From positions 1,116,001-1,180,000 of the forward strand of contig NZ_JARRAH010000001.1 in NCBI RefSeq assembly GCF_030553305.1: DNA of 64,000 nt. The letters are read 5' to 3'. Position numbers and translations under genes: made by a program. The notes beneath the pieces are model-generated. The model was not told the DNA's origin. It worked only from the letters and a program-made list of their open reading frames with translations, and made no database searches. Each line of letters begins with the position of its first letter. The first letter of the stretch is position 1. Positions 6,374 through 44,620 of this stretch are shown here, one piece after another. This DNA comes from Halomarina ordinaria (GTDB taxonomy: Archaea; Halobacteriota; Halobacteria; Halobacteriales; Haloarculaceae).

Positions 6374-7138
6374 CTAGCGAGCGGTCCACCCGCCGTCGAC
6401 GGCGAGCGTCGCGCCGGTGACGTAGCTCGCGGCGTCGCTCGCGAGGAAGACGGCCGGCCCCGCTATCTCCTCGGGGTCCGCGAAGCGGTCGAGTGGCGTT
6501 CGGTCGAGGATAGAAGCGCTGAGGTCGTCGTTCTCCCGGAGGTCGCCGGTGAGGTCGGTCGCCACGTAGCCGGGCGCGAGACAGTTGACGCGAACGTCCG
6601 GTGCCCAGTCGAGCGCGAGGCTCTTGGTCAGGCCGACCAGCCCGTGTTTCGAGGCGACGTACGGGTGCTGTCTGGGGAGCCCCACGAGGCCCCCCACGCT
6701 CGCGACGTTGACGACGGAGCCGCCGCGCTCGCGGAGGTGCGCCGCTCCCTCGCGGGCGCAGAGGAACGCCCCGCGCAGGTTCACGTCCGTCACGAAGTCG
6801 AACCCCTCCGCGTCGACACGCTCGGGCGTCCCCAGCGCGGCGTCGGGGTTGATGCCGGCGTTGTTCACGACCACGTCGGCGCCGCCGTACTCCTCCTCCA
6901 CGCGGTCGAACAGCGCCGCGACGCTGTCGGGGTCGGCGACGTCGGTCGAGACGGCGAGCGCCTCCCCCCCGTCGGCCTGGATACCCTCGACGACGGTCGC
7001 GAGGTCGTCCGCGCTCCGGGCCGTCGGGACGACCGTCGCCCCCGCCGCCGCCATCCCTTCGGCTATCGCCCGTCCGATGCCGCGGCTCCCGCCGGTGACG
7101 ACCGCGACGCGTCCCGCGAGGTCGAACTGCTCGTGCAT
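6374..7138 (-). CDS. SDR-family oxidoreductase (3-oxoacyl-ACP reductase-like)
   Basis: This is a classical short-chain dehydrogenase of 254 residues. From the ATG at 7138 it reads MHEQFDLAGRVAVVTGGSRG, with the cofactor motif TGGSRGIG at residues 15-22, the NNAG motif near 90, a Ser in the VVNVASVGG segment and the catalytic YVASKHG (YxxxK) near 155. The tail DGGWTAR is typical of FabG-like enzymes. An Arg follows the glycine motif, which favours NADP(H). The start is set by family alignment and by a TATA-like element 25-30 bases upstream. It lies behind the Liv operon promoter but has its own promoter. Confidence 0.9.
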   Translation of the reverse strand: MHEQFDLAGRVAVVTGGSRGIGRAIAEGMAAAGATVVPTARSADDLATVVEGIQADGGEALAVSTDVADPDSVAALFDRVEEEYGGADVVVNNAGINPDAALGTPERVDAEGFDFVTDVNLRGAFLCAREGAAHLRERGGSVVNVASVGGLVGLPRQHPYVASKHGLVGLTKSLALDWAPDVRVNCLAPGYVATDLTGDLRENDDLSASILDRTPLDRFADPEEIAGPAVFLASDAASYVTGATLAVDGGWTAR

Positions 7139-7162
7139 GCGCCTGTCTGCCACGCACGCCGA

Positions 7163-7168
7163 AATAAA
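7163..7168 (-). promoter_or_regulatory. TATA box of the SDR gene
   Basis: The minus strand reads CCTTTATTTC around these bases, about 27 bases ahead of the ATG at 7138, which implies a leaderless mRNA. Confidence 0.5.
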
Positions 7169-7241
7169 GGGTCCGACTCGGGGACGCACGCGGACCGCCG
7201 CCACCCGGAGGTATACGGCCGGGGCGCTCCTCTCCCAGCCA

Positions 7242-8645
7242 ATGTTGCTCCACTGGCACCGGTGCGACCTCCGGGCGGCCGACAACGTCGCGCTCGCGGA
7301 GGCGGCCGACGACGACGTCCTCCCCGTCTTCGTGTTCGACGAGGCGGTGCTGGCGCACGCCTCGCCGCCGCGCGTGGCGTTCATGCTCGACGCGCTCGCG
7401 AACCTCAGAGGGTGGTACCGCGAGCGCGGCGGCGACCTGGCGGTCGGCCACGGGGACCCGGCCGACGTGCTGGTCGACGTCGCGGCCGAACACGGCGCCG
7501 ACGGCGTCCGCTGGAACCACGACTACTCGGGGCTCGCACAGCGCCGGGACGACGCCGTCCGGACGGCGCTGGAGGGCGCGGACCTCGACCACCGGGCGTT
7601 CCACGGCGACCTCCACCACGAACCGGGGAGCATCACGACCAACGACGGCGACCCCTACTCCGTCTACACCTACTTCTGGAAGAAGTGGCGCGACCGCGAG
7701 AAGGAAGGCCCCTACGACCCGCCGGCAGACGAGGCACTCGTCGACCACGCGGGCGACGACCTGCCGACGCTCGCTGACCTCGGCTTCGACGACCCGGACT
7801 GCGAGGTCGAACCGGCCGGCGCGGACGCGGCCCGCGAGCGCCTCGCAGCGTTCTGCGACGGCCCCATCTACGAGTACGCGGAGCGACGCGACTACCCCGC
7901 CGAGGGCTGTACGTCCCGCCTGTCCGCCCACCTCAGGTGGGGGACTATCGGGGTGAGGGAGGTGTACGCGGCGACCGAGGAGGCGCTGTCGGGGGCGGCC
8001 GACGACGAGGCCCGGGAGTCCGTCGAGGAGTTCCAGAGCCAACTCGCCTGGCGGGAGTTCTACACGCACGTCCTGTTCTTCAACCCGGGCGTCGTGACGG
8101 AGAACTACAGGGAGTACGAGAACGACATCGAGTGGCGCGACGACGACGACGCCCTCCGGGCGTGGAAGGACGGCGAGACCGGCTATCCCATCGTCGACGC
8201 CGGGATGCGCCAGTTGCGCGAGGAGGGGTACCTCCACAACCGCGTGCGGATGATCGTCGCCTCGTTCCTCACGAAGGACCTGCTGCTGGACTGGCGCGAG
8301 GGGTACGACTGGTTCCGCGAGCGACTGGTCGACCACCACACCGGCAACGACAACGGCGGCTGGCAGTGGGCCGCCTCGACGGGGACCGACGCTCAACCCT
8401 ACTTCCGAATCTTCAACCCGATGACGCAGGGCGAGCGCTACGACCCCGACGCCGAGTACATCCGTCGATACATCCCGGAGCTCTCGGACGTCGACCCAGG
8501 GGACGTCCACGCGTGGCACGAACTCGAGACCGACGAGCGCGAGACACTCGCGCCGGCGTACCCCGCGCCCGTCGTCGACCACGGCGAGCGTCGGGAGGCG
8601 GCGCTCGCGATGTTCGAGCGGGCCCGCGGCGAGAGCGACGACTGA
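7242..8645 (+). CDS. phr: Deoxyribodipyrimidine (CPD) photolyase
   Basis: This is a light-driven DNA repair flavoprotein that splits cyclobutane pyrimidine dimers. The 467 residues begin MLLHWHRCDLRAADNVAL, giving an N-terminal alpha/beta antenna domain (about 1-130). The helical FAD domain carries SRLSAHLRWG, the WREFY block, GYPIVDAGMRQL, LHNRVRM and the diagnostic NDNGGWQWAASTGTDAQPYF. The length is that of class I photolyases. Cryptochromes share these blocks, but the WQWAASTG and MRQL details favour photolyase. It is transcribed divergently from the SDR gene, and a TATA-like GTATAC lies about 28 bases upstream. Confidence 0.93.
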   Translation: MLLHWHRCDLRAADNVALAEAADDDVLPVFVFDEAVLAHASPPRVAFMLDALANLRGWYRERGGDLAVGHGDPADVLVDVAAEHGADGVRWNHDYSGLAQRRDDAVRTALEGADLDHRAFHGDLHHEPGSITTNDGDPYSVYTYFWKKWRDREKEGPYDPPADEALVDHAGDDLPTLADLGFDDPDCEVEPAGADAARERLAAFCDGPIYEYAERRDYPAEGCTSRLSAHLRWGTIGVREVYAATEEALSGAADDEARESVEEFQSQLAWREFYTHVLFFNPGVVTENYREYENDIEWRDDDDALRAWKDGETGYPIVDAGMRQLREEGYLHNRVRMIVASFLTKDLLLDWREGYDWFRERLVDHHTGNDNGGWQWAASTGTDAQPYFRIFNPMTQGERYDPDAEYIRRYIPELSDVDPGDVHAWHELETDERETLAPAYPAPVVDHGERREAALAMFERARGESDD

Positions 8646-8789
8646 CGCTCACGAAAGTGGTCGTTCACCGAATCGATCGACGTCTTCGACATATAGGCAT
8701 TCCAACGTAAATCGAGTTCAGGGGATGGACCGCCTCCTCCTCAATCTTTTTCAGCTATCCGTCCGACTGTCGAGTGGAGGTATCAGATT

Positions 8790-9401
8790 ATGTCCGAACA
8801 GTCAAACCCCGAACTGCCGCCGCTTCCGTACGACTACGACGCACTGGAGCCGAGCCTCTCCGAGCAGGTCCTGACGTGGCACCACGACACGCACCACCAG
8901 GGCTACGTAAACGGCCTCGACAGCGCGGAGCAGACGCTGTCGGAGAACCGCGAGAGCGGTGACTTCGGCTCCTCCGGGGGCGCGATGCGCTCGGTGACCC
9001 ACAACGGCTGTGGACACTATCTCCACACCACGTTCTGGGAGAACATGTCCCCCGACGGCGGCGGCGAGCCGTCCGGCGACCTCGCCGACCGCATCGAGGA
9101 GGACTTCGGCTCCTACGAGGGCTGGAAGGGCGAGTTCGAAGCCGCCGCGTCCGCCGCGGGTGGCTGGGCGCTCCTCGTCTACGACCCCGTCGCCAAGCAG
9201 CTCCGCAACGTCGTCGTCGACAAGCACGACCAGGGCGCGCTCTGGGGCAGTCACCCCATCCTCGCGCTCGACGTCTGGGAGCACTCGTACTACTACGACT
9301 ACGGTCCGTCGCGCGGCGACTTCGTCGACGCGTTCTTCGACGTCGTCGACTGGGACGACGTCGCCGACAAGTACGACACGGTCGTCTCCACGTACGAGTA
9401 A
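8790..9401 (+). CDS. sod: Superoxide dismutase, Mn/Fe family
   Basis: This enzyme dismutates superoxide to oxygen and hydrogen peroxide in the cytoplasm. The 203-residue length is normal. The four metal ligands are visible by alignment: His31 in LTWHHDTHHQGYV, His79 in CGHYLHTTFWENM, and Asp161 and His165 in LDVWEHSYYYDYG. Haloarchaeal enzymes of this family use manganese; the metal is inferred. It stands alone, about 145 bases after the photolyase gene, so the two stress genes may be regulated separately. AT-rich patches near 8690 and 8742 could hold its promoter. Confidence 0.95.
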   Translation: MSEQSNPELPPLPYDYDALEPSLSEQVLTWHHDTHHQGYVNGLDSAEQTLSENRESGDFGSSGGAMRSVTHNGCGHYLHTTFWENMSPDGGGEPSGDLADRIEEDFGSYEGWKGEFEAAASAAGGWALLVYDPVAKQLRNVVVDKHDQGALWGSHPILALDVWEHSYYYDYGPSRGDFVDAFFDVVDWDDVADKYDTVVSTYE

Positions 9402-9564
9402 TCCGGAAGCGACACACCTTCCTTCGTTTTTCGCGACCGCTCCACGGGCGTGAGCGACCGGTACCGGCGGCTGGGCGAGCGCAGAGCGGCCGCACCGCTC
9501 TCGACCGTCACGCACGGCGACGGGGATGGGACGATTTACGACGGCGGCGACGCTACCGACGCAC

Positions 9565-9834
9565 ATGCCCCGACCGCGCGAGGAGTTCGACCGGCTCAGA
9601 CCGCTCCAGTTCCGCGACCCCGCCGAGGTACTCGAGGAGGACCAGCTGTACACCGTCTACGAGATAGCGCGCCTCCTGCAGGGCGTCGAGGTGGACCGGG
9701 AACTCGACGTCGAGACGGAGAACGTCCTGCTCGACTGGGCCATCCCGTGGATGATGGTCAACGCCGACGCGTTCGTCTTCGGCGACCCCGAGGCCGACGA
9801 CGAACCCGGGTACTACGGGCTGGCGACCGAGTGA
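9565..9834 (+). CDS. Small acidic haloarchaeal protein (DUF5827-like)
   Basis: This 89-residue acidic soluble protein starts MPRPREEFDRLRPLQFRDPA. It contains the segment DQLYTVYEIARLLQGVEVD and ends with a block rich in Trp and Met (LDWAIPWMMVNADAFVFG). I recall a haloarchaea-specific family of this pattern (DUF5827), but the name is from memory. The ATG at 9565 is preferred to the upstream one at 9526 because a TATA-like GATTTACG lies 25-30 bases ahead of it. No catalytic motif is seen and the function is unknown. Confidence 0.7.
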   Translation: MPRPREEFDRLRPLQFRDPAEVLEEDQLYTVYEIARLLQGVEVDRELDVETENVLLDWAIPWMMVNADAFVFGDPEADDEPGYYGLATE

Positions 9835-9835
9835 G

Positions 9836-9933
9836 GGCGGACAGGCGACGCGACCGACGACACGCCGCCGGGTGCGTCGCGCTCCCGCTTCGCCGGCGGC
9901 GACCGGACGTCAGGACACGGCGGGTCTGGTCGC
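9836..9933 (+). repeat. 98-base structured intergenic element, copy 1
   Basis: It lies between two convergent genes and has four blocks shared with a second copy at 37987-38083: GGCGGACAGGCGACGCG, TGCGTCGCGCTCCCGC, a GTCAGG-CACGGCG block and CTGGTCGC. Block spacing differs by only one base between copies. The unconserved arms here pair perfectly over nine bases (9863-9871 with 9893-9901) around the second block. In addition, GCGACGC of block 1 complements GCGTCGC of block 2 in both copies. It may be a structured RNA, a transcription terminator or a dispersed repeat. The orientation given is arbitrary. Confidence 0.7.
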
Positions 9934-9962
9934 GTCCTCTCCCATAAAGACTCGCCGCCCGC

Positions 9963-10538
9963 TCAGAACCGCGCCGCCTGTCCGGCGAGTTCGATGTCCT
10001 GCCGGGGGGTCGTCGTGACGCTCGGCCCGTGGCCGGTGTGCATCTCGGCGAGGTCGTCGTCGACCGTCTCGTGGAGGGTGTCGATGCTCTCGACGAGCGT
10101 CGCCCGGTCGCCCTCGGCGAGGTCGGTCCGGCCGAAGCTCCCGTTGGCGAAGACGAGGTCGCCGGCGAACAGTATCCCCGGGGCGCGGGCGTAGAGACAG
10201 AGGTGGTCGTCCTTGTGACCGGGGGTGTGGAGCGCGAGGTAGTCGTGGTCGCCCATCCGGACGGTGTCGCCGTCCGCGATGGGGTGGTCGACGCCCGGCT
10301 GGTCGACGTCGAACCCCCAGGCGTCGACGCCGAACGCCTCCTTCACCGCGTCGAGGTTGCCGACGTGGTCGGGGTGCGTGTGGGTGAGGACCACGGCGTC
10401 GAGGGCGTCGACGTGCTCGCGGACGGCACTCACCACGTCGAAGTCGTTGCCGGGGTCGACGAGGACGGTTCGCTCGCCCTCGACGAGGAAGGCGTTGCTC
10501 GTGAACACGCGCTGACCCTGCGCGAGGTTACGAATCAT
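9963..10538 (-). CDS. Metallo-beta-lactamase-fold hydrolase (glyoxalase II-like)
   Basis: This soluble binuclear metal hydrolase has 191 residues and starts MIRNLAQGQRVFTSNAFLV. Metal ligands are visible: HTHPDH at 53-58, His108 in LHTPGHKDDH, Asp127 in LFAGDLVF and His170 in HTGHGP. The family includes hydroxyacylglutathione hydrolases and related thioesterases, but haloarchaea lack glutathione, so the real substrate is unknown. It lies 47 bases after the creatininase-family gene on the same strand and may be co-transcribed with it. The start was chosen from the family N-terminus. Confidence 0.88.
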   Translation of the reverse strand: MIRNLAQGQRVFTSNAFLVEGERTVLVDPGNDFDVVSAVREHVDALDAVVLTHTHPDHVGNLDAVKEAFGVDAWGFDVDQPGVDHPIADGDTVRMGDHDYLALHTPGHKDDHLCLYARAPGILFAGDLVFANGSFGRTDLAEGDRATLVESIDTLHETVDDDLAEMHTGHGPSVTTTPRQDIELAGQAARF

Positions 10539-10585
10539 GCGCCCGGCTACGACCGGCCCTCGCTTGTGCGTGTCGTTCTCCCGGG

Positions 10586-11356
10586 TCAGACGTGCGGGCG
10601 GGGGACGAGTTCGTCCGCCTCGCGCGCGGCGAGCCACTCGCAGAGCTCGACCAGTTGCTCCGTGGCGGCCTCGAAGAGCCGCTCGCCCTTCTCGGGGGTG
10701 GCGTCGGTCTGGTCGCCGAACGCCCCGTTGGCGGCGTTCTCGACGGAGTCGTAGAAGGTGCGCGCGCCGTTGACCGTCGCGCCCGCGAAGTCGAAGTCCA
10801 TCCAGCCACCGTCGCGGGCGTCGGCCAGTCGGTCGTCGTGGACGAGTTCGGGACGGAGGTGCATCACCATCGCCGTCTCCTTCGGCCCGGCGTGGGGGCC
10901 GTTGTGCTCGAAGCTGTCGTTCACGAGATCCGGGATGGACTCGTCCCACATCCACTCGATGGCGTAGGCGTCGCCCGACTCGTGGAGGCGGCGACCGACC
11001 TCCCGGAGGTGCTGGACGTTCCCGCCGTGGGCGTTGACGTAGACGATGCGGTCGATACCGTGGTAGGTGAGGTTGCGTGAGAAGGACTCGACGTAGTCGC
11101 GGAAGGCGGGCGCGTCGACCCACATCGTCCCGGGGAACTGGCGGTGGTGGGGGCTGACGCCGACGTTGATGGTGGGCGTACAGAGGTAGCCCGTCCGGTC
11201 CGCCGCCTCGCGGGCGAGGCCCTGTGCGATGACGTGGTCGGTCGACTCCGGCAGGTGCGGCCCGTGCTGTTCGGTCGACCCGAGCGGCACCAGTGCCAGC
11301 GATTCGTTCTCGAAGTACTCCTCGAGGTCCGTCCACGCCTCGTCGGCCAGGTACAT
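10586..11356 (-). CDS. Creatininase-family amidohydrolase
   Basis: This 256-residue protein carries the creatininase metal motifs: GSTEQHGPHLP (Glu29, His31), the following Asp40, the YVNAHGGN block, and the Glu in GPKETAMVM. The family includes creatinine amidohydrolase, the archaeal formamide hydrolase ArfB of riboflavin/F420 synthesis, and MftE peptidase. Haloarchaea make F420 and riboflavin, so an ArfB-like role is possible but not shown. It is followed at short distance by a metallo-beta-lactamase-fold gene on the same strand. Confidence 0.88.
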   Translation of the reverse strand: MYLADEAWTDLEEYFENESLALVPLGSTEQHGPHLPESTDHVIAQGLAREAADRTGYLCTPTINVGVSPHHRQFPGTMWVDAPAFRDYVESFSRNLTYHGIDRIVYVNAHGGNVQHLREVGRRLHESGDAYAIEWMWDESIPDLVNDSFEHNGPHAGPKETAMVMHLRPELVHDDRLADARDGGWMDFDFAGATVNGARTFYDSVENAANGAFGDQTDATPEKGERLFEAATEQLVELCEWLAAREADELVPRPHV

Positions 11357-11407
11357 CCTACGCGGGGGGAGACGCCCCGAGGACCAATACGTTGCCCTTC
11401 CGGCGCG

Positions 11408-11641
11408 TCAGTCGTCGGCCGGGAGGTCGTCGGGCGACCCGTCGGGGACGACGGGGAGGACGGCGACGCCGAAGACCAGGTGGACGACACCGACCAGTGT
11501 CCACCACAGCCCCATCGTCGAGTCCCCGGACCGATACTGGACGGTCCCGAGGAGGAGGAACGCGAGTCCGACGAGGACGAAGACGACGGTTCCGACCTTC
11601 GGACTGCCGAACCGGGCGACGAGCGACGCCTCGCGGCTCAT
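11408..11641 (-). CDS. Small membrane protein with two transmembrane segments
   Basis: This 77-residue protein (MSREASLVARFGSPKVGTVV) has two hydrophobic helices, about residues 17-35 and 43-63, and a short acidic tail. Its ATG overlaps the stop codon of the upstream small gene in an ATGA arrangement, which supports both genes and suggests translational coupling. I do not recognise the family. Confidence 0.6.
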   Translation of the reverse strand: MSREASLVARFGSPKVGTVVFVLVGLAFLLLGTVQYRSGDSTMGLWWTLVGVVHLVFGVAVLPVVPDGSPDDLPADD

Positions 11642-11856
11642 CGGCCACCCGAACCCGTCTCGCGACCCGTCCGCGACGAGACGCCTTCCGACCCCATAGA
11701 CGCGCACTCGATGGTCCTGTAGAACCCCTTCTCGGTTCGAATCACACCACACGACTGACACTCCCAGACGAGCTTTCGGAACCGCCCCTCGACCGCCCGG
11801 AGTGGGTGTCCCCACGACCGACCGAGCTGACCGAGGCGTTCCGGAACGCCGGACAT
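11638..11856 (-). CDS. Small protein with a Cys pair, possibly zinc-binding
   Basis: This 72-residue protein starts MSGVPERLGQLGRSWGHP. It has a compact cysteine region, WECQSCGVIRTEKGFYRTIEC, giving a CxxC pair plus one further Cys, so a fourth metal ligand would have to be a His or come from a partner. The C-terminus is Gly/Ser-rich and looks disordered. The ATG at 11856 fits a TATA-like TTTATT (minus strand, 11924-11929) with a short leader. An in-frame ATG at 11907 is an alternative. It overlaps the following membrane-protein gene by ATGA. Confidence 0.5.
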   Translation of the reverse strand: MSGVPERLGQLGRSWGHPLRAVEGRFRKLVWECQSCGVIRTEKGFYRTIECASMGSEGVSSRTGRETGSGGR

Positions 11857-11962
11857 GGTACGTCTGCCTCGCGCTACCTCGTTCAACCCACCGGCTACAC
11901 AGAACACCCCGAGGGCTAGTATGAATAAATTCCTGTCGGACGTGTTACTTTTCGGTCGGTCG

Positions 11963-12298
11963 TCAAGGCGCGCCGGCGAGCACGAGGCGAGCGCGTTCGT
12001 CGCCCCGGTTGACCAGCTGTCTGCGCTGGTCCGGCGAGAGGCGAATCGCTTCGTTCCGTTCGAGCGTCACGGTGTCGTCGCCACAGTCGACGTCGACCCG
12101 GCCGTCGACGACGACGTACACCTCCTCGTGGTCGTCGCCGGCGTGGTCGTGTTCCTTCCCTTTCGCCCCGGGTTCGAGTTCCAGCACGGTAACGCCCACT
12201 GCCTCGGCGTCGAGGGCGTCCCGGAGGAACCACATGCCACCGTACTCCTCGTCGATGACCGACTCGACGTCCTCGGGACTCGCGGTCTGGTAGGTCAT
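11963..12298 (-). CDS. Cupin-domain protein
   Basis: This 111-residue single cupin barrel has metal-site residues in the pattern HDHAGDDHEEVYVVVDGRV (motif 1), and motif 2 is a degenerate region near RLSPDQRRQLVNRGDE. Small cupins act as isomerases, dioxygenases or ligand-binding domains, and no substrate can be assigned. The start lies 115 bases from the divergent thyA start, so the two genes share an intergenic region. Confidence 0.82.
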   Translation of the reverse strand: MTYQTASPEDVESVIDEEYGGMWFLRDALDAEAVGVTVLELEPGAKGKEHDHAGDDHEEVYVVVDGRVDVDCGDDTVTLERNEAIRLSPDQRRQLVNRGDERARLVLAGAP

Positions 12299-12413
12299 AC
12301 ACGGGCACGGAGGGGCGCGAGGCGTATCAGTTGTGGGGGAGAGGGGAAGCGAGGGACGGAACGGAAGGCATTATCACGCTGACCGGTATTCCACAGACAG
12401 ACACCACGTCCCC

Positions 12414-13421
12414 ATGAAACAGTACCTCGACCTCGTCGAACGGGTCCTCTCGTCGGGGAGCCACAAGCCGAACCGGACCGGCGTCGACACCGTCTCGTCG
12501 TTCAGCCAGCACTACCGCGTCGACCTCGCGGAGGGGTTCCCCCTGCTGACGACCAAACGCCTCGACGGCTTCCGCTGGGACTCGCTCGTCCACGAACTGC
12601 TCTGGTACCTCTCGGGCGAGGAGCACGTCAGGACGCTGCGCGAGCACACCGGTATCTGGGACGCCTGGGCCGACGACTCGGGGCGCCTCGACACCGCCTA
12701 CGGCCGGTTCTGGCGGCGCTACCCGATACCCGAGCGTTCGAGTCGACTCGACGGCGAGTCCTGGCCCGACGACGCCCACCGGTGGGTCAACGACGACGAA
12801 CGGACCTTCGACCAGCTCGGGTACGTCCTCGACACACTCCGCGAGGACCCGACCTCCCGACGGCTGGTCGTGAACGCCTGGCACCCCGCGAACGCCGCGG
12901 TCAGCACGCTCCCGCCCTGTCACTACACGTTCGTCTTCAACGTCCAGGGCGACCGGCTGAACCTCCACCTCACCCAGCGCTCCGGCGACGTGGCCCTCGG
13001 GGTCCCCTTCAACGTCGCGGCGTACGCCCTGCTGGCGGAGGCCGTCGCCCAGCGTACCGGGTTCGAGGCGGGCGAGTTCGCCCACACCGTCGTCGACGCG
13101 CACGTCTACTGTGGCGCCGGCGAGCGCGGCGCGTGGTACGCCGACAACCTCGACGCCCTGCAGTCCCGACTGGCGGCCGTCGAGGGGCGCGAGGGGTACC
13201 GCGACGTGCGCGCGTGGCTCGAATCGACCGCGCCGCCGGAGGCCGACGGCGAGGAACGCTACGACCACGTCCCCGGCCTGCTCGAACAGCTCTCGCGCGA
13301 ACCGCGCGAGCGCCCCGAAATCGCCATCAGCGACAAGCCGCTCGACGAACTCGCGTTCGACGACATCGAACTGCGTAACTACGACTCGGCGGAGGGTATC
13401 CGCTTCGCCGTCGCGGAATGA
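12414..13421 (+). CDS. thyA: Thymidylate synthase
   Basis: This enzyme methylates dUMP to dTMP using methylenetetrahydrofolate, which it oxidises to dihydrofolate. The 335 residues include the conserved N-terminal RTGVDTVSSF, the WYLSGEEHVRTL region, the active-site Cys169 in LPPCHYTFVF, QRSGDVALGVPFN and the HVY motif of the dUMP site. The stop overlaps the start of folA by four bases (ATGA), so substrate supply and cofactor recycling are coupled in one operon, as known for other haloarchaea. Confidence 0.95.
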   Translation: MKQYLDLVERVLSSGSHKPNRTGVDTVSSFSQHYRVDLAEGFPLLTTKRLDGFRWDSLVHELLWYLSGEEHVRTLREHTGIWDAWADDSGRLDTAYGRFWRRYPIPERSSRLDGESWPDDAHRWVNDDERTFDQLGYVLDTLREDPTSRRLVVNAWHPANAAVSTLPPCHYTFVFNVQGDRLNLHLTQRSGDVALGVPFNVAAYALLAEAVAQRTGFEAGEFAHTVVDAHVYCGAGERGAWYADNLDALQSRLAAVEGREGYRDVRAWLESTAPPEADGEERYDHVPGLLEQLSREPRERPEIAISDKPLDELAFDDIELRNYDSAEGIRFAVAE

Positions 13422-13975
13422 CGGGCGACGGTTCGGTCCGCGACGTCGACCCGCGCAGAGAGGGGGGCGAGGCCCCCGAGGTGGCGCTCGTCGCGGCCGT
13501 CGCCGCCAACGGCGTCATCGGCGCGGACGGCGAGATGCCGTGGCACTACCCCGAGGACCTGAAGCACTTCAAGCGGCTCACGACGGGCCACCCCGTCGTG
13601 ATGGGGCGACGGACCTACGAGAGCATCGTCGCCGACCTCGGCGGCCCGCTGCCCGACCGGACGAACGTCGTGTTGAGCACGCGCGACCTCGACCTGCCGG
13701 AAGGGGCAGTCAGTGCGGACTCGGTCGAGGCGGCGCTCGCGACGGCCCGCGAGGCCGTGGACGGGGACGAAGACGTCGTGTTCGTCGTGGGGGGAGCGAC
13801 CGTCTACGAACAGCTCCTCCCGCTGGCGGACCGACAGTACCTCACCGAACTCCCCGAGGCGTACGACGGCGACACGTACTACCCGGCGTGGGACCGCGAG
13901 GCGTGGGTGGAGGTCGACCGCGAGGAGCGCGACGGTCTCGCGTTCGTGGCGTACGAGCGCCGCGAACGCGCGTGA
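13418..13975 (+). CDS. folA: Dihydrofolate reductase
   Basis: This enzyme reduces dihydrofolate to tetrahydrofolate with NADPH, regenerating the cofactor used up by ThyA. The DHFR core starts near residue 22 (VALVAAVAANGVIGADGEMPW). It shows the WHYPEDLKHFKRLT segment, MGRRTYES for NADPH binding and VVGGATVYEQLL. About 20 hydrophilic N-terminal residues precede the core. The ATG at 13418 overlaps the thyA stop. A downstream start would lose the coupling, so the longer form is preferred. Confidence 0.93.
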   Translation: MTGDGSVRDVDPRREGGEAPEVALVAAVAANGVIGADGEMPWHYPEDLKHFKRLTTGHPVVMGRRTYESIVADLGGPLPDRTNVVLSTRDLDLPEGAVSADSVEAALATAREAVDGDEDVVFVVGGATVYEQLLPLADRQYLTELPEAYDGDTYYPAWDREAWVEVDREERDGLAFVAYERRERA

Positions 13976-14064
13976 TAGCCGCGCCCGCGGGGTCGTCGAC
14001 CACCCCGAGCACGTTGGTAGCAGTTCCCGCGGGTATTATGCCGCCGGTCGGTTAGTCTACCGAC

Positions 14065-15837
14065 ATGAGCGACCCCATCGACTACGGCGCGCTCGACGCC
14101 GGGCGCGACTGTAACTACTGGACCTTCGACCCGACGCTCGCGGCGGCGGCCGAGCGCGCTTACCCGCCGGAGGAGTTCGACTGGGCCGCCCCTCGACTGG
14201 AGGCGTTCGGCGAGGTGGTCGGGACGCGGGTCGTCGAGAACTCCGAACGCGTCGAGGCGAACCCGCCGACGCTGCACACCTACGACCGGTGGGGCGAGGT
14301 GGCCAACCGCGTCGAGTACCACCCGGCGCTCGCCGACACCGAGCGAATCACCTACTGCGACTACGGCCTCTCGCACGACGTGTTCCACGCGCCGCCCGGC
14401 CGCGAGGAGCCGATGGGTCTCACCCACGCGCTGACCCTGCAGGCGGTGCTCTCGTTCGCCGACCCCGGGTTCGTCTGTCCGGCGTCGATGACCGTCGGCG
14501 CCGCGCTGGTGCTCGACCGGTTCGGGGACGACGACAGGTTGGAGGAGTACCTGGAGCGACTGACCACGCGCGACCCCGAGACGTACATCGAGGGGGCGAT
14601 GTTCCTCACCGAGAAGCAGGGCGGCAGCGACGTGGGGGCCAACGAGACCGTCGCCCGGGAGACCGACGAGGAGGGGGTGTACCGCCTCACCGGCGAGAAG
14701 TGGTTCTGTTCGAACGTCGACGCCGAGGGGACGCTCGCGCTCGCGCGCCGCGAGGGCGCCCCCGAGGGGACCGCCGGCCTCTCGCTGTTCCTCGTCCCGC
14801 ACACGACGGCCGACGGGGAACTGAACGACCAGCTCTACCGGCGGCTGAAGGACAAACTGGGGACGCTCTCGGTGCCGACGGGCGAGGTGGAGTTCCGGGG
14901 CGCGGAGGGGTACCTCGTCGGCGAACCCGAGTCGGGCTTCCGGCAGATGACGGCGATGCTCAACTACGAGCGCCTCTCGAACGCGGCGGCGAGCGTGGGA
15001 GTGATGGGGCGCTGTCTGCTGGAGTCGAAGGTCCGGGCGGCCAACCGGGAGGCGTTCGGCAAGCCCATCGACCAGCACCCCCTCATGCGCCGCGACCTCG
15101 TGGAGATGAGCGTCGACTACGAGGCGGCGACGGCGTTCACCTTCGCCGCCGCGTCCCTGCTCGACCGCCACCACCGCGAGGACGACGAGGACGCCTACCG
15201 GCTGATGCGCCTGCTCGTCCCCATCGCGAAGTCCCGGACGGCCCGCGAGGCCGTCGACACGGCCTCCTACGCCTGCGAGGTCCTCGGGGGCAACGGCTAC
15301 GTCTCGGGGTTCGCCACCGAGCGGATGCTCCGGGACGCGCAGGTGCTGCCCATCTGGGAGGGTACCTCGAACGTCCTCGCGCTCGACGTCCTCCGGGTGC
15401 TGGAGCGCGAGGCGGCCCACGAGGTGTTCGTCCCCGCGGTCCGGGAACGGCTCGACGGCGTCGACCACGACTCGCTCGCGGCCGCCGGAGACACCGTCGC
15501 GAGCGAACTCGCGGACCTCCAGCGGGCGATGGCGACGCTCGCGACTGAGGACCCCGAGTACGCCCAGCTCAAGGCGAAGGACCTCGTGGACTACCTCTAC
15601 GACGTCTTCGCCGCCGCCGAGTTGCTCGCCGTCGCGCAGGCCGACATCGAGGCGGGCGACGGCCGCGCCGCGCTGGTCGCCCGCTCGTTCGTGCGGTCGC
15701 GCTTCGGTCGGCGGTCGGCGCGCGGACGCGGTATCGACGACGGCGACCGCCTCGCGCTCGACGCGTTCGACGCCGTCGTCGGCCACGCGCGCGTCGAACC
15801 GGCCGCGCTCGCCGACCCGACACCGGCCGACGACTGA
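14065..15837 (+). CDS. Acyl-CoA dehydrogenase family protein, AidB-like
   Basis: This 590-residue flavoprotein follows the AidB pattern: a long N-terminal domain, the block MFLTEKQGGSDVGANET, EKWFCSNVDAEGTL, then FGKPIDQHPLMRRDL and VLPIWEGTSNVLALD, with an extra C-terminal helical domain. Bacterial AidB binds DNA and is induced by alkylation, while its relatives dehydrogenate acyl-CoAs. Which of these applies here cannot be decided. A TATA-like TATTAT lies about 28 bases ahead of the ATG, so it is probably transcribed separately from thyA-folA. Confidence 0.88.
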   Translation: MSDPIDYGALDAGRDCNYWTFDPTLAAAAERAYPPEEFDWAAPRLEAFGEVVGTRVVENSERVEANPPTLHTYDRWGEVANRVEYHPALADTERITYCDYGLSHDVFHAPPGREEPMGLTHALTLQAVLSFADPGFVCPASMTVGAALVLDRFGDDDRLEEYLERLTTRDPETYIEGAMFLTEKQGGSDVGANETVARETDEEGVYRLTGEKWFCSNVDAEGTLALARREGAPEGTAGLSLFLVPHTTADGELNDQLYRRLKDKLGTLSVPTGEVEFRGAEGYLVGEPESGFRQMTAMLNYERLSNAAASVGVMGRCLLESKVRAANREAFGKPIDQHPLMRRDLVEMSVDYEAATAFTFAAASLLDRHHREDDEDAYRLMRLLVPIAKSRTAREAVDTASYACEVLGGNGYVSGFATERMLRDAQVLPIWEGTSNVLALDVLRVLEREAAHEVFVPAVRERLDGVDHDSLAAAGDTVASELADLQRAMATLATEDPEYAQLKAKDLVDYLYDVFAAAELLAVAQADIEAGDGRAALVARSFVRSRFGRRSARGRGIDDGDRLALDAFDAVVGHARVEPAALADPTPADD

Positions 15838-15957
15838 CCGGTCGAACGGCGGCGCGACGGGGGGCCATGCGGAGACACAGCACGCCGTGTCACTAGCGGC
15901 CGAGTGACATACTGTAGTCGGGGCCGTTTTGTACTCCGGCGGGTATGGCTACGATAG

Positions 15958-17187
15958 ATGTCGCGCGCGCTGGGGGTGTGGCTGCTCGCCGTCTTCCTCG
16001 TCGTCTCTGCGGTTCCGGGCGGAGGAGCGGCGGCCCAGTCGGAACCGACCCCCGAGTTCGACCGCACGACGTTCGACATCGAGGTGATGGAGAACGGCTC
16101 CGCGCGCTGGACCTTCGAGTACTCACAGCCGCTCGAGACGTCGGCCGACCGTTCGGAGTTCGAGACGTTCGCGGCGGAGTTCAACGAGAGCGAACAGGAA
16201 CTCTACACGGACTTCCAGGAACGAGCACGGACCCTGACGACCACCGGGAGCGAACAGACCGGACGCCAGATGTTCCCGGTCGACTTCGAGCGGCAGGCGT
16301 ACGTCACCCCGCTCGGTAACAAGGGGGTCGTCGAGATGTCGTTCCGCTGGGAGGGGTTCGCGCTCGTCTCCGACGACCGCGTCGTCGTCGGAGACGTCTT
16401 CGACGGGGGGCTCTACCTCGCACCGAACCAGCGACTGCAGATGTCGTGGGACGACGACCGACTGACGTACGTCTCGGCGAGTCCCGACGCGGACCAGCAG
16501 ACGTCGGAGACCGTCATCTGGGAGGCAGAGGACGGCGGGACGCAGTTCTACGACGAGCAGCCGGGGCTGACGCTCGAATCCCCCAACGCCACCAACGAGT
16601 CGGACACCGACGACGAGGACACCCCCGACTCGGCCGTCGAGGGAGTCCTCTCGCCGATGTCCATCGGCGCCCTGCTGGCCGCGCTCGCGCTCTGCGCGCT
16701 CGCGCTCGTCCGGTTCGACGTCGTCGACAGACTCGGCGACGATGGGGACGGCGGGAGTGAGGGCACCGGCGACGGCGCGGGCGGCGACAGTCCGGGTGAC
16801 GGTTCGAGCGGTGGCGACGGTCCCGGCCCTCCGACGACGGACGCGGGTGTCGAGACGAGTCGGGACGTGGGTGACGACACCGACGCCGAGGAGGGTCCCG
16901 ACCCGGTGGTCGAACCGGGAGGGCCGAGCGAGGCGGCGGACATCCCCGACGAGTTGCTGTTGACCGACGAGGACCGGGTCCTGCGCCTCCTCGAGGAGAA
17001 CGGCGGGCGGATGCGGCAGGTCGACATCGTCGAGGGGACCGACTGGTCGAAGTCGAAGGTGAGCATGCTCCTCTCGGACATGGAGGACGACGGCCTGGTG
17101 AACAAACTCCGCGTCGGCCGGGAGAACATCGTCAGTCGGGACGTCGAGAGCGGGTCGGAGCCGCCGTCGTCCGGTGATGACGAGTGA
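15958..17187 (+). CDS. Membrane-anchored winged-helix protein with extracytoplasmic sensor domain
   Basis: This 409-residue protein begins with a signal peptide (MSRALGVWLLAVFLVVSAVPG, cleavage near AAAQ). An extracytoplasmic beta-rich domain follows (about 30-205). After an acidic linker comes one transmembrane helix (about 225-245), then a Gly/Asp-rich disordered linker. The C-terminal winged helix (about 325-400) contains MRQVDIVEGTDWSKSKVSMLLSDM, a clear helix-turn-helix, ending NIVSRD. The order outside sensor, membrane helix, DNA-binding domain suggests a one-component regulator working at the membrane. Haloarchaea have many such proteins, whose targets are mostly unknown. Confidence 0.85.
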   Translation: MSRALGVWLLAVFLVVSAVPGGGAAAQSEPTPEFDRTTFDIEVMENGSARWTFEYSQPLETSADRSEFETFAAEFNESEQELYTDFQERARTLTTTGSEQTGRQMFPVDFERQAYVTPLGNKGVVEMSFRWEGFALVSDDRVVVGDVFDGGLYLAPNQRLQMSWDDDRLTYVSASPDADQQTSETVIWEAEDGGTQFYDEQPGLTLESPNATNESDTDDEDTPDSAVEGVLSPMSIGALLAALALCALALVRFDVVDRLGDDGDGGSEGTGDGAGGDSPGDGSSGGDGPGPPTTDAGVETSRDVGDDTDAEEGPDPVVEPGGPSEAADIPDELLLTDEDRVLRLLEENGGRMRQVDIVEGTDWSKSKVSMLLSDMEDDGLVNKLRVGRENIVSRDVESGSEPPSSGDDE

Positions 17188-39740: not shown

Positions 39741-40787
39741 CTACTCCTGGGGCATGATGACCGCCCGCCCCTCTATCTCGCCGTGTTCGAGGCGCTCGGC
39801 CACCTCGTTGACGTCGTCCAGCCCGTAGCGCGAGGTGTGCAGGTCGACGTCGCCCTGCGCGACGAGCGCCATGAGCTCCTGTAACTCGGTGTACTGTCCG
39901 ACGAGCGTGCCGACGTAGGAGAACTCGCCGTTGACGAGCGTCTGGGCGGGTTCGTGAACGTGGCCGCCGTAGCCGACGACGTGGTGCTCGCCCGTCCCGC
40001 GGACGATGTCCGGTGCGAGCGCGAGCGTCGGGTCGCGCCCGACGAAGTCGACCACCTGCGTCGCCAGCGCGCCGTCGGTGATGGCGTCGATTTCGGCGGG
40101 GACGTCGTCGTTCTCGGGGTCGAGCGTGTAGTCCGCGCCGAGCTCCGTCGCCAGCTCGCGCGCCTCCTCCTTCACGTCGAGGGCGATGAGCTGGGCGGCG
40201 CTCATCGCGTCGAGGCACTGCAGGCCGATGTGTCCGAGGCCGCCGACGCCGACCACCACGGCGTAGTCGCCGGGGACGAGCTGCGAGACGGCCTTCTTCA
40301 CCGCGTGGTAGGCCGTGATGCCCGCGTCGGCGTGGGGCGCGATGTCCACCGGGTCCACCCCGTCGGGCAGCGGGATGACGGAGCGCTCGGAGGTGAGCAG
40401 GCGCTCGGCGAACCCGCCGTCGGTCGTGAGCCCCGGGAACGAGAGGTTCTCGCAGTGCATGTCCTCGCCGAGGCGGCAGGGGCGACACTTCCCGCAGGGG
40501 AGGACGGGGTGACAGATGACCCGGTCGCCCTCCGAGACGGTCGTCACCTCCTCACCGACCCCGACGACGGTGCCGGCGTTCTCGTGGCCGAGCGTCATCG
40601 GGAGGTCCTGCTCGACGTAGTCGGTCCACATCCCCTCGATGATGTGGTTGTCCGTCTGGCACCACCCCGCCCCCTGAACGTCGACGACGACGTGGTCCGA
40701 ACGGGTGGGTTGGGGCGCGTCCACCTCGTCGATGGAGAGCGCCTCGCTCATGTCCTCGGTGTACTCGTGCAGTCGGGCTGCTTGCAT
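39741..40787 (-). CDS. Zinc-dependent alcohol dehydrogenase (MDR superfamily)
   Basis: This 348-residue oxidoreductase starts MQAARLHEYTEDMSEALSID. Catalytic zinc ligands are Cys43, His68 and Glu69 (GHEN). Structural zinc ligands are Cys98, Cys101, Cys104 and Cys112 in PCGKCRPCRLGEDMHC. The NAD(P) motif is VVVGVGGLGHIG (about 177-188), followed by an Asp in IALDVKEEA that favours NAD. It is divergent from the amidohydrolase-DUF59 pair. In actinobacterial propane/phenol-type monooxygenase operons a similar dehydrogenase accompanies the same two partners. Confidence 0.92.
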   Translation of the reverse strand: MQAARLHEYTEDMSEALSIDEVDAPQPTRSDHVVVDVQGAGWCQTDNHIIEGMWTDYVEQDLPMTLGHENAGTVVGVGEEVTTVSEGDRVICHPVLPCGKCRPCRLGEDMHCENLSFPGLTTDGGFAERLLTSERSVIPLPDGVDPVDIAPHADAGITAYHAVKKAVSQLVPGDYAVVVGVGGLGHIGLQCLDAMSAAQLIALDVKEEARELATELGADYTLDPENDDVPAEIDAITDGALATQVVDFVGRDPTLALAPDIVRGTGEHHVVGYGGHVHEPAQTLVNGEFSYVGTLVGQYTELQELMALVAQGDVDLHTSRYGLDDVNEVAERLEHGEIEGRAVIMPQE

Positions 40788-40814
40788 GGTACCACCGACC
40801 ACGGACGGGAGCGG

Positions 40815-40820
40815 ATAAAA
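40815..40820 (-). promoter_or_regulatory. TATA box of the alcohol dehydrogenase gene
   Basis: The minus strand reads TTTTAT in GGTTTTATCCG. Its centre is about 30 bases from the ATG at 40787, so a leaderless mRNA is expected. Confidence 0.65.
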
Positions 40821-40903
40821 CCTATTGTCATCGCTCTACACACTCTCGTGGCCGTGAAATGCCCGAAAGCGCTTTGCCATCAATGTCCGTGATACTAGTA
40901 CAC

Positions 40904-41965
40904 ATGTATCAGCACGAAGGGGAGGACGTCTTCGTCGTGGACGCTCACATCCACAACTGGGACGCCAGCGAGGAGAACATCATCCACGAGGGCGGCGAGC
41001 AGTTCATCCAGTGTTTCTACGACTACCACACCGGGTTCACGCCCGAGGAACACCAGTGGGACCTCGCCGAGTACCGGAAGTACGGGTCCGACCGACTGGT
41101 CAAAGACCTCTTTCGCGACGGGAGCGTCGACATGGCCATCTTCCAGCCCACCCACCTCGAGGAGTTCTACGAGGAGGGGTTCAACACCGTCGACAAGAAC
41201 GCGGAACTCGTCGAGGAACACCCCGAGCGGTTCATCGTGAACGGGCGGTTCGACCCTCGCGACGGCGAGGAGGGCCTCGAGGAACTCGAACGCCAGAAGG
41301 AGGAGTACGACATCACGGGCGTGAAGGTGTACACCGCCGAGTGGAAGGGCGACTCGAAGGGGTGGCGCCTCGACAGCGAGGAGGCCTTCGAGTACCTGGA
41401 GAAGTGTGCGGAACTGGGTATCGAGAACGTCCACCCACACAAGGGACCGACCATCCGGCCGCTGAACCGCGACGCCTTCGACGTGGCGGACGTCGACGAC
41501 GCGGCGACGTCGTTCCCGGAACTCAACTTCGTCGTCGAACACGTCGGCCTCCCGCGCCTCGACGACTTCTGCTGGATTGCCGCCCAGGAGCCGAACGTCT
41601 ACGGCGGCCTGGCGGTGGCGGCACCGCTCGCGCACGCCCGACCGCGGAAGTTCGGCGAGATAATCGGCGAACTGCTGTTCTGGCTCGGCGAGGACCGCGT
41701 CCTCTTCGGCAGCGACTACGCCATCTGGGAACCCGACTGGCTCGTCGAGGCGGTGATGGAGGCGGAACTCACGCCCGAGCAGCGCGAGGAGTTCGGCGTC
41801 GAGTTCGACCTCGACGTGAAGAAGAAGGTGATGGGCGAGAACGCCGCCACCCTCTACGACATCGACATCCCCCAGAAGGAGAGCGACCTCCGGACCGACG
41901 ACATCAGCGAGGAGTTCGGCCTCGCCGACCAGTACGACCGCGGGCCGGCGCCCGCCGACGACTGA
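40904..41965 (+). CDS. Amidohydrolase-family (amidohydrolase 2) metal-dependent hydrolase
   Basis: This 353-residue TIM-barrel hydrolase has the metal motif DAHIHNW (His15, His17), a Lys in ITGVKVYT, HPHKGP, VEHVGLP, and the late Asp in LFGSDYAIWEPDW. This is the amidohydrolase 2 group that includes decarboxylases and lactonases. The ATG at 40904 (MYQHEGEDVFVVD) fits a weak upstream promoter. Its stop overlaps the next start in TGATG. A similar protein with unknown chemistry is encoded in bacterial binuclear-iron monooxygenase operons beside a DUF59 protein. Confidence 0.85.
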   Translation: MYQHEGEDVFVVDAHIHNWDASEENIIHEGGEQFIQCFYDYHTGFTPEEHQWDLAEYRKYGSDRLVKDLFRDGSVDMAIFQPTHLEEFYEEGFNTVDKNAELVEEHPERFIVNGRFDPRDGEEGLEELERQKEEYDITGVKVYTAEWKGDSKGWRLDSEEAFEYLEKCAELGIENVHPHKGPTIRPLNRDAFDVADVDDAATSFPELNFVVEHVGLPRLDDFCWIAAQEPNVYGGLAVAAPLAHARPRKFGEIIGELLFWLGEDRVLFGSDYAIWEPDWLVEAVMEAELTPEQREEFGVEFDLDVKKKVMGENAATLYDIDIPQKESDLRTDDISEEFGLADQYDRGPAPADD

Positions 41966-42717
41966 TGAGCGTCGACACTCCCACCACCGGCCGGCCGGCC
42001 GTCGTCGAGCGATTGAAGCGAGTTACGGACCCGGAGCTCGACCGCTCCATCGTCGACCTGGAGTACGTCGAGCGAATCGAGGTCGACCTCCCCCGGGTGT
42101 TCGTCCGGTTCGCCCTCCCGACGGCGTGGTGTTCGCCCGCCTTCGCGTGGATGATGGCGAGCGACGTCCGTGAGGAGGTCGAGGAACTCCCCGGCGTCGG
42201 ACGCGTCGAGGTCGAACTCGTCGACCACATGCACGGGGAGGAGATAACCGAGGGCGTCAACGCCGGCGACCCCTTCGAGTCGGTGTTCGAGGACGCCACC
42301 GAGGGTGTCGCGGCCGTGCGGGCGACGCTCGACGCCAAGGCCCGCCTGGCGCGCCAGTACGACGCGGTCGAGGCACTCTCGGAGGCGGGCCTCGCCCCCG
42401 AGCAGATAGCCGACCTGCGACGCGAGGACGTGACGCTCGACGCGGACGCCGACCGGGCCGCGGTAGCGGTTCGTGACGGCGCGCTGACCGTCTTCGCGCC
42501 GCGCGAACCGCTCGCCCGCGTCGTCGAGAAGGCGACGGAGACCGGTCTCGTCACCTCGGGTGAGGACCGTCTGTTCGCCTCGCCGGAGGGCGAGCCCCTC
42601 ACGCCGTCGTCGTTCGACCTCGTCCAGCGTCGGGCGCGGCTGGCGAAGACGAACATGGGCGGGCAGGGAACCGTCTGTGACGGGTTGCGGCGCGCGCGCT
42701 ACGGCGCGGACGACTGA
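41965..42717 (+). CDS. DUF59/MIP18-family iron-sulfur assembly protein with C-terminal extension
   Basis: The N-terminal 95 residues form the DUF59 domain (VVERLKRVTDPELDRSIVDLEYV, then PTAWCSPAFAWMMASDVREE with the conserved Cys). Residues from about 100 to 250 are an extra helical part without recognised motifs. Family members such as SufT, MIP18 and PaaD help insert Fe-S clusters or mature metalloenzymes. It is coupled to the amidohydrolase gene by a one-base TGATG overlap, so the two probably act on the same target enzyme. Confidence 0.83.
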   Translation: MSVDTPTTGRPAVVERLKRVTDPELDRSIVDLEYVERIEVDLPRVFVRFALPTAWCSPAFAWMMASDVREEVEELPGVGRVEVELVDHMHGEEITEGVNAGDPFESVFEDATEGVAAVRATLDAKARLARQYDAVEALSEAGLAPEQIADLRREDVTLDADADRAAVAVRDGALTVFAPREPLARVVEKATETGLVTSGEDRLFASPEGEPLTPSSFDLVQRRARLAKTNMGGQGTVCDGLRRARYGADD

Positions 42718-42781: not shown

Positions 42782-44620
42782 ATGGCCGACAGAGAGCGTC
42801 CCGGACGGGGCGCGGACCCTCCGGACCCGCAGGAATCAGTCAGAGAAGCAGTCGAACAGTCGAGGAGCGGGGCGCCCGCCGCCGGGAAGGTCGTCCGCGA
42901 CCGGTTCTCCTCCGACGAGGTCTTCCAGCGCATCGTCGCCGCCGCCGACGAGGAGATAACGTCCGGCAGCCGCGAACTGTTCTTCAGCGCGCTGGCCGGC
43001 GGCTTCGCCATCACCATCACGTTCCTGCTCTACGTCTCGGTGTCGGCGGAGACCGGCGAGGACCCCATCCTGAGCGCCCTGCTCTACCCGCTCGGGTTCA
43101 TCTACATCATCATCGGCGGCTACCAGCTGTACACCGAGAACACGCTCCCGCCGGTGGCACTGACACTCGAACGGTTGGCGAGCGTCCCGGCGCTGCTGCG
43201 CAACTGGACGGTCGTGCTCCTCGGGAACGCCGCCGGCGGGGCGGCCGGAGCGACCGCCCTCGCCTACGGGGACGTGTTCTCGTCGGAAGCGGCGACGATA
43301 GCCGTCGAGGTGAGTCGGAAGGGACTGGAGACGGGGTGGTGGTCGCTGTTCGCGAAGGCCGCCTTCGCGGGCCTCATCGTCGCCGGCGTCGTCTGGGTCG
43401 AGTACGCCGCCCGCGACACCATCTCGCGGCTCGTCGTCGTCTACCTCGCGTTCCTCGCCATTCCGCTCGGTGGCCTCTTTCACTCGGTCGTCTCCATCAC
43501 GGAGACGGTGTACCTGGTCCACCTCGGCGAGACCAGCGTCTTCGTCGGGATGACCCAGTTCGTCCTCCCGGTCCTGCTCGGCAACACCGTCGGCGGCGTG
43601 CTGCTGGTGACCGTCGTCAACTACTTCCAGACGACCGAGGAGCGCCTCGAGGACGCCCGGTTCGAGGGGGCACGCCGACAGCTCACGATGCGCGAGTGGC
43701 TGTTCGGCGGCTTCGTCGGCCGGTCCTACGTCCCGCTCATCGACACCACCGAACACCGGGGCAGCAGCACCAGCGAGGCGACGCGCCTCCTGGTCCCGAT
43801 ATCGAACCCCCGGACGGAGTCGCACCTCGTCGACCTCGCCTGCACGCTCGCCAGTCAGCGCGAGGACGCTATCGTCGAGGCGGTCCACATCGTCCAGGTG
43901 CCGGACCGCCTCGCCCGTCGGGGCTACGGCGGCACCCGGAGCAACCGCATCGTCAACGAGTCCGACCGGCTCATGGAACGGGTCCGCGAGCAGGCCGAGG
44001 GGTACGGCGTCGAGTGCGAGACGTCGACGGTCGTCTCCCACCGGTCGTTCGAGGAGATATTCACCCTCGCGCGCCACAAACGCGCGGACCTCGTGGTGAT
44101 GGGCTGGGCCGACGACCGCCTGTGGGCCGCCGGACGCGCGGAGCGCTCGCTCAGCGAACTCACGAACAGCCTCCCCTGCGACTTCCTCGTCCTCAGGGAC
44201 CGCGGCCAGGACGCCTCGCGCGTCCTGCTCCCGACCGACGGTGGCCCCAACTCCGACCTGAGCGCCGAGGTGGCCCGCGCGCTCCGGGCGACGTTCGGCT
44301 CCGACGTCACGCTGCTCTACGTCGTCGACGGGCCGGACGAGCGCGAGGAGGGCGAACAGTTCATCCTCGACTGGGCCGGGGAGAACGACCTCGGCGACGC
44401 GGACATCGTCGTCGACACCTCGGGGGACGTCGAGGCGGCCATCGCGCGCGAGGCGGCCGACCACACCCTGTTGCTCATCGGCGCGACGGACCGCGGCCTC
44501 CTCTCGCGGCTCATGACCGACTCGCTGCACTACGACATCGTCAACCGGGTCGAGCAGTCGATACTGCTCACCGAGCGCGCGACCGACCGGAGCCTCCGCG
44601 AGCGCATCTTCGGGGACTGA
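42782..44620 (+). CDS. Formate/nitrite-type (FNT) channel fused to two UspA-like domains
   Basis: This 612-residue protein has three parts. After an acidic N-terminus comes an FNT channel (about 50-300) with six membrane segments, including FFSALAGGFAITITFLLY and LLGNTVGGVLLVTVVNYF. Two universal stress domains follow. The first (about 330-475) starts TRLLVPISNPRTESHLVDLA and includes HKRADLVVMGWAD. The second (about 478-605) starts SRVLLPTDGGPNSDLSAEVA. The channel would pass small anions such as formate, nitrite or hydrosulfide, and the nucleotide-binding Usp domains may gate or sense. Confidence 0.85.
   Translation: MADRERPGRGADPPDPQESVREAVEQSRSGAPAAGKVVRDRFSSDEVFQRIVAAADEEITSGSRELFFSALAGGFAITITFLLYVSVSAETGEDPILSALLYPLGFIYIIIGGYQLYTENTLPPVALTLERLASVPALLRNWTVVLLGNAAGGAAGATALAYGDVFSSEAATIAVEVSRKGLETGWWSLFAKAAFAGLIVAGVVWVEYAARDTISRLVVVYLAFLAIPLGGLFHSVVSITETVYLVHLGETSVFVGMTQFVLPVLLGNTVGGVLLVTVVNYFQTTEERLEDARFEGARRQLTMREWLFGGFVGRSYVPLIDTTEHRGSSTSEATRLLVPISNPRTESHLVDLACTLASQREDAIVEAVHIVQVPDRLARRGYGGTRSNRIVNESDRLMERVREQAEGYGVECETSTVVSHRSFEEIFTLARHKRADLVVMGWADDRLWAAGRAERSLSELTNSLPCDFLVLRDRGQDASRVLLPTDGGPNSDLSAEVARALRATFGSDVTLLYVVDGPDEREEGEQFILDWAGENDLGDADIVVDTSGDVEAAIAREAADHTLLLIGATDRGLLSRLMTDSLHYDIVNRVEQSILLTERATDRSLRERIFGD

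Follow-up and report, generated by a model that had tools for sequence, protein, structure and literature searches.

An alcohol dehydrogenase–amidohydrolase–DUF59 gene set of Halomarina ordinaria and its relation to di-iron monooxygenase operons

Bacterial propane/acetone-type di-iron monooxygenase operons carry accessory genes for an amidohydrolase, a DUF59 protein and an alcohol dehydrogenase, and the same trio stands in a 64,000-nt window (the whole stretch of DNA analysed) from the haloarchaeon Halomarina ordinaria (assembly label G000) with no hydroxylase gene close by, raising the question of what the three genes do there. Our analysis argues that they probably form a self-contained catabolic module, with no dependence on a di-iron monooxygenase, in which the DUF59 protein is the partner of the amidohydrolase. 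The alcohol dehydrogenase gene (ADH; positions 39741–40787, minus strand) encodes a 348-residue zinc medium-chain alcohol dehydrogenase of the NAD(P) type (Pfam ADH_N, 3e-27; ADH_zinc_N, 2e-20). A divergent intergenic region of 116 bases (40788–40903) is common to ADH and to a plus-strand gene pair, of which the first member, the amidohydrolase gene (AH; 40904–41965), encodes 353 residues matching Amidohydro_2 (PF04909, 4e-48) and, by family, a metal-dependent enzyme; we preferred the AH start at 40904 over that at 40859 because the conserved N-terminus M-Y-x-x-x-G-E-x-V-F-V begins there. The AH stop and the start of the second gene overlap in TGATG (41963–41967, plus strand), which couples both genes. 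This second gene (41965–42717, plus strand) encodes 250 residues comprising a DUF59 domain and a C-terminal recombinase-like domain, and DUF59L is our name for the DUF59 protein bearing this extension of ~150 residues. Coordinates, Pfam matches and sequence confirmed the divergent and coupled arrangement that a first-pass annotation of this DNA had described.

The gene set and the di-iron hydroxylase

The lack of a hydroxylase close by, also reported in that annotation, extends to the whole genome: a profile search with PF02332 gave no match in H. ordinaria, while matches in the genomes G047, G285, G353 and G444 and in bacteria served as the positive control. All genome searches covered the species in our genome collection. 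None of the eight genes of the window scanned against Pfam encodes a reductase, an MmoB coupling protein or GroEL. Across the 148 genomes of the window's family, a strict AH orthologue was found in 21, and DUF59L was present in the same 21, adjacent to AH. PF02332 matched in only one of the 148, G047, which carries the set too, 1.9 Mb away; the neighbours of this hydroxylase are XylR_N, a catechol-2,3-dioxygenase-like gene and a DmpG-type aldolase gene, and it is therefore of the phenol type. In the order sample of 394 genomes, AH occurred in 112 (a count that leaves out a G284 match to a distant paralogue) and PF02332 in 3, and no genome had both. As a separate observation, the G047 locus (L041; G047:C1:176000-194000, ~4284–16454) holds a rare haloarchaeal phenol-type hydroxylase, with an alpha subunit bearing a YHS domain, a beta subunit and XylR_N/V4R beside them, and G285, G353 and G444 are further haloarchaeal genomes with a rare phenol-type di-iron hydroxylase.

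The bacterial relatives were surveyed in 80 loci of the genome collection, taken as the best matches to a Thermomicrobium AH; a hydroxylase gene lies nearby in 57 of them and not in 23, proportions that are not estimates for all bacteria. A short contig of 3 kb that carries GroEL is among the 23, and 22 loci count as lacking a local hydroxylase. Twenty genomes stand behind the hydroxylase-less loci, and 12 of them keep AH–DUF59L without PF02332 anywhere: Thermomicrobium, Thermoflexus, two Poribacteria, a member each of Dehalococcoidia, Bacillota, Bacillaceae and Propionibacteriales, Thermogemmatispora, Chloroflexus, a further Chloroflexi genome and Jeotgalibacillus. In seven loci of Alphaproteobacteria (L054, L061, L062, L063, L064, L073 and L087), AH–DUF59L lies away from a hydroxylase, with hydroxylase genes elsewhere in the genome.

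A PaaA-type di-iron oxygenase family is encoded in 228 of the 394 genomes and also in H. ordinaria itself, and DUF59 proteins such as PaaD serve oxygenase systems. In haloarchaea, the set might accordingly mature or feed an oxygenase whose gene lies elsewhere in the genome, such as PaaABCE or a different non-heme iron enzyme, and the 57 bacterial AH–DUF59L loci beside a hydroxylase point in the same direction. However, PaaA showed no association with the set (72 of 112 set-bearing genomes versus 156 of 282 others; Fisher p = 0.11), PF02332 is absent here and in all 112 set-bearing genomes of the order sample, bacterial genomes free of soluble di-iron monooxygenases (SDIMOs) retain the set, and MimABCD activity was reported to require co-expression of MimG, a GroEL-like protein (PMC7570240). 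We consider such an oxygenase service quite unlikely. Of the two possibilities raised by the first-pass annotation, service to or maturation of another di-iron oxygenase elsewhere thus went unsupported, the hydroxylase being absent or unlinked, and an independent module in haloarchaea proved right. Our firmest conclusion is that the module does not depend on the di-iron monooxygenase (INDEPENDENCE from the oxygenase). Two things that are commonly treated as one can thus be told apart: AH and DUF59 in the propane/acetone monooxygenase operons are not simply maturation factors for the oxygenase, since genomes without any such oxygenase still retain the two genes as a unit. Haloarchaea with genetic tools offer a clean system in which the roles of AH and DUF59L can be studied without an oxygenase.

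Kinship, gene order and history of the set

AH is 55–58% identical to proteins encoded on bacterial plasmids, and DUF59L is ~30–35% identical to the product of the adjoining gene on those plasmids, over its full length and including the whole extension. On Aminobacter pAA02 and Paracoccus pAMI4, the genes for hydroxylase alpha, reductase, beta and coupling proteins are followed by AH/DUF59L and then GroEL, and a Rhodococcus BW2 plasmid retains a hydroxylase open reading frame, AH, DUF59, ADH and GroEL. A conserved metal-dependent hydrolase, a metal-sulfur cluster enzyme, an ADH and GroEL were likewise described downstream of prmABCD (PMC4428276). The window ADH is 44–54% identical to the ADHs of bacterial AH–DUF59L loci, and no paralogue in the H. 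ordinaria genome exceeds 38%, so all three genes seem to have been inherited together. Orthology of all three, together with the published layout, bears out the earlier identification of the trio with the accessory block found in propane/acetone-type di-iron monooxygenase operons. Thus, of a group-5 SDIMO operon, the accessory AH, the extended DUF59 protein and the ADH are present, and the hydroxylase alpha and beta subunits (PF02332) were not found in the genome.

A map of archaeal co-occurrence further supported the linkage of the families. AH and DUF59L are adjacent in all 41 haloarchaeal loci, far beyond chance, and ADH lies within ~3 kb in 39 of the 41, divergently in 36 of these 39. In the bacterial loci, DUF59L adjoins AH in 79 of 80 (the exception starts at a contig edge), mostly with a gap of no more than 6 bases. 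Even distant AH paralogues (25–34% identity) have a short DUF59 gene, lacking the extension, directly beside them on the same strand in 21 of 22 cases, and these pairs sit in other catabolic contexts, near genes for acyl-CoA dehydrogenase, thiolase, short-chain dehydrogenase/reductase (SDR) or aldehyde dehydrogenase. Pairing of AH with DUF59 is therefore the rule of this Amidohydro_2 branch, and it most simply suggests a DUF59 protein in the service of AH, a role that we regard as probable for DUF59L. In many of the distant pairs (L219–L239), the short DUF59 gene has DPCSC or DPCxA, with extra cysteines, where DUF59L has DPELD.

These distant pairs, with their other neighbours, and several bacterial loci without a nearby ADH also suit a different reading, in which AH and DUF59L would be a general metal-dependent decarboxylase, lactonase or hydratase that is not tied to an alcohol, ADH being merely a frequent companion. 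Against it, 39 of 41 haloarchaeal loci have ADH next to the pair, and this ADH is closer to the bacterial module ADHs than to any paralogue of its own genome; we find a general enzyme of this kind rather unlikely.

When the tree was rooted with distant AHs, a single clade (Shimodaira–Hasegawa-like approximate likelihood ratio test support, 98) held all haloarchaeal AHs next to the bacterial sequences, and AHs linked to a hydroxylase were nested among unlinked ones. The simplest reading of this nesting is that the monooxygenase joined an older module, an order of events that the sequences suggest. Orthology to bacterial accessory genes could also mean that the haloarchaeal set is a partly kept relic of a lost monooxygenase operon. 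But the set occurs in 112 haloarchaeal genomes with a single supported AH clade, an intact metal site and a conserved gene order, and the tree puts the SDIMO-linked state inside the bacteria rather than at the root, making a relic very unlikely.

Additional conserved neighbours of the set are confined to single genera, namely an HTH_10-type regulator, a thioredoxin-like protein and dihydrolipoyl dehydrogenase; a bacterio-opsin-activator (HTH_10-type) gene stands no more than a few kb upstream of AH in several haloarchaeal loci, L021, L022, L129, L136, L138, L170, L172 and others. In the window, the set is followed by a plus-strand gene (42782–44620) for a 612-residue protein with a formate/nitrite-transporter domain fused to two universal-stress-protein domains. 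A scan for sigma-70 promoters and terminators found nothing, as expected for an archaeon.

DUF59L and its recombinase-like extension

The DUF59/FeS_assembly_P domain of DUF59L occupies residues 12–83 (41998–42213, plus strand; PF01883, 4e-14), scoring 53.1 bits against a cut-off of 23.5. Its Cys56 (codon 42130–42132) is invariant and aligns with the conserved T-x-x-C cysteine of TM0487. The protein falls short of the NCBIfam cut-offs for the named subfamilies, with 37.4 bits for SUF_assoc, 32.4 for PaaD and 25.4 for SufT against 143, 180 and 203, respectively.

The C-terminal extension (residues 103–250; 42271–42714, plus strand) was left unassigned in the first-pass annotation, and it indeed has no Pfam match in a single-sequence scan; profile–profile and structure comparison, which alone gave matches, now make it assignable as a homologue of the tyrosine-recombinase (Xer/Cre) catalytic core. 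An AlphaFold2 model of DUF59L, computed from an alignment of 49 bacterial and archaeal sequences, reached a mean predicted local distance difference test (pLDDT) score of 93.6, and Foldseek against the PDB returned DUF59 structures for it, followed by Cre, XerD and XerA. When the extension was modelled alone (pLDDT 90.3), ranks 1–37 were all tyrosine recombinases (Cre, XerA, XerH, lambda Int and integron integrase), with a best E-value of 7e-3, probability 1.00 and a template modelling (TM) score of ~0.4–0.5. Consistently, hhalign matched the extension to a XerC/XerD profile built here (leaving out one out-of-frame row, L197) with 93.3% probability and an E-value of 3e-7. Disjoint subsets gave 95.0% (41 haloarchaeal sequences) and 92.2% (48 bacterial sequences), compared with at most 1.8% for 70 unrelated families, at most 0.4% for shuffled profiles, and 0.1% for both a reversed profile and AH. 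The hhalign E-values are those of single comparisons, and the case draws its strength from the controls and from fold and sequence pointing the same way.

Likeness to the tyrosine recombinase superfamily thus exists in fold and profile, and the catalytic Arg-Lys-His-Arg-Tyr set is missing. The Arg I position is variable (S/T/D/E/A), the aligned helix has no His-x-x-Arg, and the chain stops before the Tyr helix, so that an active recombinase is very unlikely. Xer cores carry a median net charge of +5, whereas the extension has −0.5 in bacteria and −13 in haloarchaea, values that speak against DNA binding. The extension is therefore, with high confidence, a dead recombinase-like domain: a degenerate catalytic-core fold in which Lys125 and Cys238 (codon 42676–42678) are invariant.

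A recombinase-like fold, a divergent gene arrangement and a cysteine-bearing DUF59 domain could together make DUF59L a regulator of the divergent promoter that binds DNA through the recombinase fold and senses metal or redox state. This we judged very unlikely: besides the unfavourable charge, the catalytic, DNA-contacting Arg, Lys and His positions are not conserved as such, and DUF59L is coupled to AH in translation and forms part of operons already equipped with sigma-54-type regulators of their own. A composite candidate site formed by Cys56 and Cys238 is a natural idea. A literature search for DUF59 together with an amidohydrolase or a tyrosine recombinase found nothing relevant. It is conceivable, though we would not quite bet on it, that a disabled tyrosine-recombinase core was domesticated before the bacterial/haloarchaeal split to form one half of a metal carrier with two cysteines, which would load a family of amidohydrolases or remain bound to them. 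The extension gains an origin in a dead site-specific recombinase core, and its protein two invariant cysteines as experimental targets.

Probable chemistry of the module and comparison with known systems

The metal-site residues of AH (H15, H17, H179, H213 and D271) are kept across 104 orthologues, with H17 replaced by Ala in 2, and the HxH, H, H, D pattern together with the PF04909 match places AH in Amidohydro_2. No NCBIfam model covers AH or DUF59L at its cut-off, and the phmmer matches of AH in the PDB were repeat proteins that we judged spurious. ADH has both the ADH_N and ADH_zinc_N domains, and its nearest solved relatives, Aeropyrum pernix ADH (1h2b) and Rhodococcus secondary alcohol dehydrogenase ADH-A (2xaa/3jv7), include secondary alcohol dehydrogenases. 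In a bacterial acetone route, Adh1 of the same cluster was proposed to oxidise acetol or isopropanol, and in Actinomycetospora grown on acetone/2-hydroxyisobutyric acid (2-HIBA) the AH-like protein stood at 3.2 and Adh1 at 6.1 in the percent-abundance proteome table, figures given here as printed in the table text of the paper (PMC7176365). Such abundance fits enzymes rather than trace assembly factors. By analogy, the module might handle a small secondary alcohol or ketone, a suggestion we make tentatively.

We propose a model in which AH and DUF59L make up the indivisible core. DUF59L, most likely the dedicated partner of AH, would carry a metal (iron or an iron-sulfur unit) on Cys56, probably together with Cys238, which the catalytically dead tyrosine-recombinase-like domain would present, and would either load the metal into AH or remain bound to it. 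The divergently encoded ADH would convert a small secondary alcohol to the ketone with NAD, or the reverse, and AH would act at an adjacent step in that route. Haloarchaea may import the alcohol or ketone or produce it by a different route; in bacteria, the module, being the older partner, would later have been joined to group-5 di-iron monooxygenases and GroEL, which would supply the alcohol or ketone.

Several points weigh against this model. DUF59 proteins usually act on iron-sulfur or di-iron clients, and DUF59L does occur in oxygenase operons. ADH is not nearby in some loci (L130, L179 and several bacteria), and neighbours beyond the trio vary between genera, such that no pathway could be named from context. 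Close relatives of AH have no known activity or substrate, its best PDB profile match being the uncharacterised hydrolase 3irs, and the AH tree was built quickly and has long branches to the outgroup. Should the two-cysteine carrier reading hold, AH–DUF59 pairs would be a widespread, unrecognised class of metalloenzymes, each with a metal partner dedicated to it, and what are called the 'accessory' genes of propane monooxygenases would represent an enzyme system that is separate and older.

Compared with known systems, the set most resembles the accessory block of group-5 SDIMOs (prmABCD/mimABCD), sharing with it an orthologous AH, a DUF59L with the extension and an ADH, as well as the AH–DUF59L order and its tight coupling. 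It differs in that no hydroxylase, reductase, coupling protein or GroEL adjoins it, the hydroxylase being absent genome-wide, and in that the haloarchaeal ADH is divergent, whereas that of the bacterial block is co-directional. The short pairs of haloarchaea and Nonomuraea (L219–L239) also have AH directly beside a same-strand DUF59 gene, but their AH is only 25–34% identical, their DUF59 protein has no recombinase-like domain, and their neighbours are others. With the DUF59/SufT/PaaD family (TM0487, 1uwd; TTHB138, 2cu6), DUF59L shares the domain fold and the T-x-x-C cysteine, from which its extra 150-residue domain with a second invariant cysteine sets it apart. Its likeness to tyrosine recombinases (XerC/D, XerA, XerH and Cre) is one of fold and profile over ~100–120 catalytic-core residues, while the extension lacks the catalytic Arg, Lys, His and Tyr, is neutral or acidic, and is fused to DUF59. 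Finally, Rhodococcus ruber ADH-A and the Aeropyrum pernix enzyme are the closest solved relatives of the window ADH.

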